64,000 bases of DNA from a virus, in the IMG/VR virus record IMGVR_UViG_3300037193_002967, positions 1 to 64,000 of that record; one strand, written 5' to 3'. A program made the position numbers and the translations under genes. Below, piece after piece: positions 9,405-25,662 of the stretch. Positions within the stretch are counted from its first letter, which is position 1. Each line of letters opens with the position of its first letter. The notes beneath the pieces are model-generated. The model had not been told where the DNA came from, did not search any database, and saw only the letters and a program-made list of their open reading frames with translations.

Positions 9405-9485
9405 GATATATGTCATTATCATATAAAAGATAAGTATAAAAATAAAATATTTCTTCAAGAATAGAAAATATTTTATTTTGCAGGT

Positions 9486-24152: not shown

Positions 24153-24500
24153 ATGCAAAAGGAAACAATATTTGAAATGAATGAAGTGATTGCCCGGTTT
24201 ATGGCGCTTGAAGAACGACATGACGAGTGGCGAGCACCGCATCCAACCCTTGTATTTCTTTATGATAATGCGTGGACGCCAGTACCTCGACTAAAATACC
24301 ATTCATCATGGGATTGGATCATACCAGTTTGGATCAAGTTCAGAAAATTAGAGTTAGATAATAAATATTTTTCCGAATGGTGTAATAGTTTAAGCTGGTA
24401 TTTATATAGTTCGGACGAACCTTCTCGCTTTGCAGAAAGACTATATTATGCTATTCAATGGTATAATAAATACAGTAACTCGTACTCAAATTTGTGTTGA
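24153..24500 (+). CDS. Hypothetical protein
   Basis: A 115-residue protein rich in Trp, Tyr and Arg. Its stop codon lies in the first pentamer of the first GYNNN array (24496-24500). Function unknown. Confidence 0.55.
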   Translation: MQKETIFEMNEVIARFMALEERHDEWRAPHPTLVFLYDNAWTPVPRLKYHSSWDWIIPVWIKFRKLELDNKYFSEWCNSLSWYLYSSDEPSRFAERLYYAIQWYNKYSNSYSNLC

Positions 24501-24580
24501 GTAAAGTGGAGTATAGTACTGCTATGTAATGTCGGGTGCCGTTCAGTGATGCGCCGTTATGTCTAGTATTGTAAAGTTTT
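24496..24580 (+). repeat. GYNNN pentanucleotide array 1 (17 units)
   Basis: Seventeen consecutive in-phase 5-mers, each starting G then C or T, the other three positions free; no unit departs from the pattern. The first (GTTGA) covers the stop of the upstream gene. It is followed by TAAAACAATAAAG and then the ATG of the 188-residue protein gene at 24597. There is no GATTTT tail here. Visible directly in the sequence. Confidence 0.9.
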
Positions 24581-24596
24581 TAAAACAATAAAGTAT

Positions 24597-25163
24597 ATGA
24601 TCTACACAGTAAAAATCGAAGGCGTTACGCCTTATATGCAACATCGCATGGACGATGTTAAATTAGCCGACTGGGAAAAGAACCGCAAACAGATCATCGA
24701 ACGTCCGGATGTGGCCCTCGAAGATGCAAAGCGGGCGGAATATCATTGTTACAGAAATAAAGATGGGCATTGCTATATCCCATCAGAACAGCTTAGAATA
24801 GCTATGATCAATGGAGGCACTTACTTAAAAAGTAAAGTTGGTACTAAAACCAAAAGTATGAAAGGCATTATTGCCGCTGTTCTTCAAATCACCCCTGAGC
24901 AAATATTGCTGCCAGATTATGATGAAATTGATAAAAGGTCAGCCGTAAATAAAAATGTTAAAGCCAGGGTAATGGTGATCCGCCCAAAATGGTCCCAGTG
25001 GGAAACCCAGTTTGATATGATCTTGGATAATGGGACTCTTACAAAAGAAATGCTTACAGAACTTGTAAATGTTACTGGTAATTATGTAGGCATCGGAAGT
25101 TATCGGCCTACTAACAATGGGTATTTTGGTAGATTCAAATTAAATGATATTTGCATAAAGTAG
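24597..25163 (+). CDS. Conserved phage protein between pentamer arrays
   Basis: A 188-residue protein. It starts IYTVKIEGVTPYMQHRMDD, has YIPSEQLRIAMINGG in the middle, and ends NYVGIGSYRPTNNGYFGRF near the C-terminus. I recognise this pattern from a widespread phage and prophage family of unknown function whose members end with a GIGxxRPxxxGxFGRF-like motif. The glycine-rich end is reminiscent of RAMP/Cas7-like loops, but this is weak resemblance. It lies exactly between GYNNN arrays 1 and 2, with array 2 starting 4 bp before its stop codon ends, which makes it the best candidate to bind them or their transcripts. Confidence 0.65.
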   Translation: MIYTVKIEGVTPYMQHRMDDVKLADWEKNRKQIIERPDVALEDAKRAEYHCYRNKDGHCYIPSEQLRIAMINGGTYLKSKVGTKTKSMKGIIAAVLQITPEQILLPDYDEIDKRSAVNKNVKARVMVIRPKWSQWETQFDMILDNGTLTKEMLTELVNVTGNYVGIGSYRPTNNGYFGRFKLNDICIK

Positions 25164-25244
25164 AGTGATGCGATGTTTTGCGGAGTAACGCAATGTTATG
25201 CTAAGTCACGTCAAGCGCAATGAAGTAACGTCCTGTACCGTATA
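25160..25244 (+). repeat. GYNNN pentanucleotide array 2 (17 units)
   Basis: Seventeen in-phase 5-mers; only ATGAA (25220-25224) lacks the GY start. The array starts inside the stop codon region of the 188-residue gene and ends with GTATA, then GATTTTTTT and AAATAATAAA. It has the same 85-nt length as array 1. Confidence 0.9.
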
Positions 25245-25263
25245 GATTTTTTTAAATAATAAA

Positions 25264-25344
25264 GTAGCGTCGCGTTACGTTGGGCTAAGTTAGGTGGCTG
25301 TGATGTAGGGCAAGGTGTTGTGGGGCGAAGCGCAGTTTAGTATA
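25264..25344 (+). repeat. GYNNN pentanucleotide array 3 (16 units)
   Basis: Sixteen 5-mers that all start GY, with one extra T (25299) that shifts the phase once in the middle. It ends GTTTA, GTATA, then GATTTTTT and AAA. Confidence 0.9.
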
Positions 25345-25384
25345 GATTTTTTAAATTTACTTAATTAAGATATTTTATTTTGTT

Positions 25385-25484
25385 GCGATGCAATGTTATG
25401 TCATGTAAAGAAATGTACGGTGGAGCAAAGTAATGTCAAGCCACGTGTAGTATCGTCAAGTCAAGAATAGTAAAGTTTAGTATT
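25385..25484 (+). repeat. GYNNN pentanucleotide array 4 (20 units)
   Basis: Twenty in-phase 5-mers; GAAAT and GAATA deviate (GA instead of GY). It is preceded by ATATTTTATTTTG, the same 13 bases as upstream of the XRE gene at 9486, a possible promoter. It ends GTTTA, GTATT, then GATTTTAT. Confidence 0.9.
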
Positions 25485-25519
25485 GATTTTATAGCCACTA
25501 AAAATATTTTTATTATACT

Positions 25520-25639
25520 GCTGTGCGTAGTTATGCGTGGCGGCGTAATGTTAAGTTGTGTAAAGTGGAGTTTAGTAAAATAAGGTGGAGTAAAGTAATG
25601 TCAGGCCACGTGTTGTATGGTAAGGTCAAGTTTAGTATA
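25520..25639 (+). repeat. GYNNN pentanucleotide array 5 (24 units)
   Basis: Twenty-four in-phase 5-mers; only ATAAG deviates. A stretch of about 35 bases (GTGGAGTAAAGTAATGTCAG and on) is nearly the same as in array 4. It ends GTTTA, GTATA, then GATTTTTTT and the leader of the next gene (ATG at 25663). Confidence 0.9.
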
Positions 25640-25662
25640 GATTTTTTTCAAATAAAAGAACA

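Follow-up and report, generated by a model that had tools for sequence, protein, structure and literature searches.

What are the runs of short, evenly spaced units that surround a small gene in a virus record, and what would they do? The window analysed here, a stretch of 64,000 nucleotides, comes from a virus record of 72,173 bases. Between positions 24,496 and 25,639 on its + strand lie five runs (arrays) of non-identical five-base units, each of the form G-Y-N-N-N and in strict phase. These GYNNN arrays flank the gene of a 188-aa protein, with array 1 upstream and arrays 2-5 downstream (Table 1). The in-phase five-base unit of G and then a pyrimidine is the main regularity of the region; it is absent from an earlier note, in which the arrays were taken for a possible family of small unstructured RNAs.

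VIPR, a phage-borne system of a RAMP protein (Vipr) and guide RNAs (vrRNAs), is known from a bioRxiv preprint of April 2026 (PMC13142463), and statements on it here refer to the main text of that preprint; a literature search on VIPR found no second paper. The vrRNAs consist of alternating GGY and NN units with an invariant tail; they use the NN bases to bind DNA, skipping one base, and repress the genes of competing elements (PMC13142463). Seven types are distinguished, all with GGY/NN “or a related consensus (fig. S17)”, and type II is represented by Escherichia phage SUSP1 and a Pseudomonas fulva prophage, with 9-16 repeats and a vap gene beside vipr (PMC13142463). Published Vipr is a RAMP of about 20 kDa with an RRM core, a glycine-rich loop and a thumb but no second RRM, and VIPR has been proposed to predate CRISPR (PMC13142463). 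The five arrays are very probably the vrRNAs of a phage VIPR with Vipr as its sole protein, the gene of which lies between arrays 1 and 2. They look like vrRNAs because the adjacent protein matches Vipr and has a predicted fold like that of Cas7 and Csm3.

Table 1. Coordinates of the gene, the arrays and their shared parts (positions in the window)
Feature	Position	Strand	Description
vipr	24597..25163	+	gene of 188-aa RAMP-like protein, predicted to be RNA-guided; between arrays 1 and 2
Putative vrRNA 1 (array 1)	24496..24580	+	17 GYNNN units in phase; lies upstream of vipr; stop codon of gene 24153-24500 within first unit
Putative vrRNA 2 (array 2)	25160..25244	+	17 units, one irregular (ATGAA); starts within vipr stop codon
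Putative vrRNA 3 (array 3)	25264..25344	+	16 units, one of 6 bases (25294-25299), giving a one-base phase slip
Putative vrRNA 4 (array 4)	25385..25484	+	20 units
Putative vrRNA 5 (array 5)	25520..25639	+	24 units; 35-base block in common with vrRNA 4
Duplicated guide block, array 4 copy	25419..25453	+	32/35 identical to 25584-25618
Duplicated guide block, array 5 copy	25584..25618	+	32/35 identical to 25419-25453
3' tail, array 2	25240..25251	+	GTATA-GATTTT(TTT)
3' tail, array 3	25335..25351	+	GTTTA-GTATA-GATTTTTT
3' tail, array 4	25475..25490	+	GTTTA-GTATT-GATTTT
3' tail, array 5	25630..25647	+	GTTTA-GTATA-GATTTTTTT

Arrays and the protein encoded between them

A pattern of 13 units with GY every five bases, allowing up to three mismatches, has 44 overlapping matches in the window, all on the + strand and all within the arrays, and 0 matches in dinucleotide shuffles of the window (n=100). 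Across the whole 72,173-base record, a 10-unit GY pattern gives 17 forward matches, 0 reverse matches and 0 when the pattern is read backwards. The three bases after GY are highly variable, with 1.93, 1.76 and 1.76 bits at positions 3, 4 and 5 of the 83 GY units in the window. An Rfam scan gave no match to the arrays, its only hits being three tRNAs at 57-60 kb.

Comparison of the 188-aa protein with PDB entry 36pp, chain D (“SUSP1 Vipr protein”), gave an E-value of 2.1e-7 over residues 4-182, and by this sequence match the protein is a Vipr homologue. It also matches phrog_4652 (E 2.2e-20), which is annotated as of unknown function, and no Pfam family was found above threshold. The AlphaFold2 model, built with 19 sequences (pLDDT 79.7, pTM 0.76), predicts a fold like that of the Cas7/Csm3 RAMPs: all of the best 50 structure matches listed are Csm3/Cas7-type chains of type III, III-E and VII CRISPR complexes, the best with Z 11.3 over 155 aligned residues (rmsd 4.0). 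The best E-value with Foldseek was 1.2e-5. The model matches Csm3 over its whole length, and G161, G165, G167 and G178 are invariant in the alignment, which fits a G-loop.

The association of such arrays with Vipr extends to other phages. Viral contigs were searched for arrays with the pentamer pattern and no protein information, which gave at least 120 loci; among the 120 listed, a Vipr HMM matched 86 and left 34 without a match, against 0/120 control loci drawn by an unrelated pattern. Many of the 120 listed match the pattern on both strands, and such loci may be coding repeats, simple repeats or cut contigs. With a looser pattern, 18/117 further loci had a Vipr match. A pattern of eleven GT units on genome contigs gave loci of which 1/119 matched, and because of this single match GT-only runs in genomes appear to be mostly something else than VIPR. 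Same-strand arrays lie within 3.5 kb in 111/127 loci with a Vipr match, and Felixounavirus Alf5, a control of the published type, has four GGYNN arrays around its Vipr homologue. In four Vipr loci (L063, L256, L286 and L347) every array runs antisense to vipr, and in L063 the fixed part appears to be GTC. A further Vipr homologue with arrays (L216) is found on a Patescibacteria MAG contig (JAMCZT010000016.1).

Just upstream of the locus, the product of 22249-23457 matches a polysaccharide lyase (PF14099, E 3e-33) and CBM6 (E 5e-11) and has an apparent signal peptide, judged by eye; it is possibly a depolymerase or a cargo gene.

Scaffold and code of the clade

The window belongs to a clade with 13 relatives (L365-L376 and L382) at 49-80% identity, in all of which GYNNN arrays are present and confined to the vipr strand. 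The base before GY, a constant G in most other loci, is free throughout the clade. In the 83 units of the window it is A in 45%, T in 33%, C in 12% and G in 11%, and its entropy of 1.76 bits is as high as that of the two guide positions. The scaffold in the clade is thus reduced to GY, without a fixed base in place of the leading G of published GGY scaffolds; judged against the main text of PMC13142463, a scaffold with only GY fixed is new. A tree of Vipr proteins covers 96 of the 127 loci, leaving out proteins below 140 aa, loci with fewer than 14 units or no arrays, and identical rows. Here the clade (11 rows) forms one group with support of 100/98. The label “free base” changes 9 times on this tree against 20 in shuffles, and scaffold type therefore follows the protein tree. 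The AGY, TGY and CGY scaffold types are also clustered on it. Other Vipr-linked scaffolds include CGC units (L040, L085, L125, L047 and L023), AGY (L291, L344, L062 and L113) and TGY (L015 and L297).

From its sequence, the clade locus looks like a one-protein VIPR. No accessory vap gene was recognised, because vipr is the sole gene common to the 14 clade loci in a gene-sharing comparison within 3.5 kb; each locus may still have an accessory gene of its own kind. The vipr gene is open in 13/14 of these loci. The exception, L376, has a Vipr homologue with one in-frame TAA (L376:4001-4534), which would mean a broken gene, recoding or an error; for this TAA it does not figure in the alignments. 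L088 and L375 are one contig.

With the first G free, each unit offers three variable bases, and whether the third is read can be approached from the arrays themselves. In the codon tests each array was shortened by its final three units as tail (by two for fused arrays in the stop-triplet test). Across 233 GGY arrays, the codon phase of the variable dinucleotides plus one skip stays constant (period 3), with z 6.4 over other spacings and a summed log-likelihood gain of 127, mostly at codon positions 1-2 and on either strand. This target-free codon phase agrees with the published one-base-skip rule. The same codon-phase test on 37 clade arrays gave z 0.72, short of significance, with period 3 tied with period 2/5. 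The third base of the clade may be the published skip position, unread, with the guide read as in GGY VIPR. It would fit the duplicated guides, where the third base changes fastest: in two pairs, position 5 differs in 7/19 units against 3/38 at positions 3-4 (Fisher p 0.011). It would also fit a sense-only test (z 0.89) in which stop triplets were not below the shuffled expectation (22 in 478 units against 23.8). Three results favour a triplet reading instead. The third guide place varies as much as the other two do in each of the 14 clade loci. Three contiguous bases per unit came out as the best of nine models (z 2.46, reached by 2/200 nulls, uncorrected for the nine tests), and shuffling the third base alone lowered the codon-model score, the real score being reached by 19/400 nulls. 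Free-base loci outside the clade gave no such signal (z 0.46). A triplet code, in which a GY scaffold with three guide bases would let each subunit read three contiguous target bases with no skip, is doubtful.

The free first base could also be a sign of decay, the guides of a former VIPR being left unmaintained. The phase slip in array 3 and the irregular units of the window arrays (ATGAA, GAAAT, GAATA and ATAAG) speak for this. However, the 11 members of the clade that the tree covers all have the free position, GY is otherwise kept, and vipr is open in nearly all clade loci; a decayed system is very unlikely.

Natural targets of the guides were sought in several collections, and none was found. 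Local scans of 3.2 and 5.2 Mb with all clade guides under five to six spacing models gave no score above shuffled guides beyond seed-selected loci. Within the viral collection, 12 exact units of array 1 found 0 targets and the seed from array 1 of L375 also found 0. Seeds of eight units from array 1 (3 viral loci) and nine units from array 5 (1 locus) were rescored as chance, and the seed from array 1 of L366 gave at least 120 matches, mostly to one repeated protein motif, with 23/32 as the best full match listed. A tblastn search of guide-derived peptides against 50,697 phage records found none. A-rich start contexts are a trait of Bacteroidota, and on that ground, which is not a host test, Bacteroidota genomes were chosen. 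With up to three mismatches, arrays 2 and 4 each matched 0/395 of them, a sample that need not contain the host. In a set of 296 Bacteroidota genomes, Vipr was found in one (G238, 30% identity) and a primase-like protein in 18 (21-30% identity). Arrays 4 and 5 have five units in common with an array of the relative L366 (4806-4920), with variable bases AAA AAT CAR CAY GTN (Lys Asn Gln His Val), and this shared stretch perhaps points to the same target gene.

Tails, linkers and transcripts

The ends of the arrays bear out much of what the earlier note described. GTAT[AT]GATTTT is found at 4/5 array ends, those of arrays 2-5, as had been claimed, with GTATAGATTTT at 25240, 25340 and 25635, GTATTGATTTT at 25480 and no other copies on either strand of the window. 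GTTTA precedes the tail in arrays 3, 4 and 5, again as described (GTTTAGTAT at 25335, 25475 and 25630). Array 1 ends in GTTTTTAAAAC and not in the common tail. The nearly identical block of about 35 bases seen in arrays 4 and 5 is likewise present, and for these two arrays it supports the proposed growth by duplication. The arrays were also rightly called unstructured, since folding is not above shuffles (z -0.88, 1.26, 0.59, -0.53 and -0.34 for arrays 1-5). As to the linker motifs, ATATTTTATTTTG holds up, occurring only at 25370 and 9468, but AATAAAG is unspecific, with 17 places on the + strand and 15 on the - strand. The copy of ATATTTTATTTTG at 9468-9480, the motif of the linker between arrays 3 and 4, has an XRE gene downstream according to the earlier note. 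Of the view that these are a family of small RNAs, discrete RNAs and a common 3' tail stand; “unstructured RNAs” misses the probable guide function, the unit being that of the published VIPR guide.

The earlier note further proposed that each array could be an independent small RNA of unspecified action, with its own promoter in the AT-rich linker and its end at the T-run. Common tails, the duplicated block and weak folding are in line with this, as are the sigma-70-like sites, of which the region has 10 against 5.4 expected, including two in the linker immediately ahead of array 5. However, only 4/10 of these sites are on the + strand, 2 of those 4 lying within vipr. A Bacteroidetes-type promoter motif had no exact match near the arrays. 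The starts of arrays 1 and 2 within stop codons and the linker of only 19 bases before array 3 (25245-25263) also speak against a promoter for each array. No terminator-like hairpin was found on the + strand of the array region. In L365 hairpins with T-runs occur only after the last of four arrays, and in L368 and L376 such hairpins follow arrays that lie downstream of vipr. In L374 (3610-3974, 73 units) and L382 (4570-5019, 90 units) the arrays are fused in a single unbroken five-base phase, their guides separated only by units that begin with TT. Because of the stop-codon starts, the 19-base linker, the last-array terminators of L365 and these fusions, a single processed precursor is favoured over one promoter per array, and the claim of separate transcripts is not supported. 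Independent small RNAs would moreover leave the linkage to vipr unexplained, and they are highly improbable. Most likely, arrays 2-5 would be one precursor, an extension of the vipr message, with processing sites in or close to the T-rich tails.

Least probable of all is that the arrays, as DNA or as RNA, are bound by a protein that forms rings or filaments with a five-base pitch, and that the variable bases are no guides: pitch and core are fixed and the spacers variable, but the arrays co-occur with Vipr, the variable bases of GGY relatives hold codon-phase information unexpected for neutral spacers, and duplicated guides vary faster at position 5 than at 3-4. TRAP-like binding uses a triplet with a two-base spacer, and a TRAP-like ring was dropped as a candidate once the Vipr match was found.

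Relation to known systems and significance

Several general features of VIPR are found at this locus, with a pentamer pitch in which fixed scaffold bases and variable bases alternate, an invariant 3' tail common to 4/5 arrays, and a RAMP homologue of about 20 kDa (by its 188 aa, the 36pp chain D match and the predicted Cas7/Csm3 fold). As in type II VIPR, a small phage RAMP gene has one array upstream and several downstream on the same strand, and the arrays are tandem pentamers that combine a fixed scaffold with hypervariable bases and have a common 3' tail. Unlike type II VIPR as described in the main text of PMC13142463, with its literal GGY and 9-16 repeats, the scaffold here is GY with a free preceding base, the arrays have 16-24 units, no vap was found within 3.5 kb, and the T-rich tail is without a predicted hairpin. 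The protein resembles the RAMPs of class 1 CRISPR-Cas (Csm3 and Cas7) in its predicted fold (Z about 11) and would resemble them in lining up subunits on a guide RNA. In contrast to class 1 CRISPR-Cas, the protein is of 188 aa, the units are non-identical instead of repeats with spacers, and no other cas genes were found among ten proteins scanned. A phage-associated tandem guide array beside one protein is also found in TIGR-Tas (PMC12045711), whereas here, judged against the description of that system, the protein match is to Vipr and the guide has the five-base unit of VIPR.

Expression and function of the arrays and of Vipr are proposed by analogy. As in the VIPR of SUSP1 and P. fulva, array RNA would be made and then cut into guides of about 100 bases. 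One Vipr subunit would sit on each five-base unit, held by the fixed bases, as in published VIPR; the variable bases would pair with the double-stranded DNA of a target, and the complex would keep genes of rival phages or prophages from being transcribed.

The clade scaffold differs from published VIPR at one of three supposedly fixed bases. AGY, TGY, CGY and GY scaffolds can be compared with their proteins across the tree, which may reveal how each subunit recognises its unit. The target-free codon-phase test is a simple route to skip rules in uncultured phages, and the clade allows a test of whether the number of bases that each subunit reads has changed. If true, a triplet code would be a step between the gapped code of VIPR and the nearly continuous guide of CRISPR.
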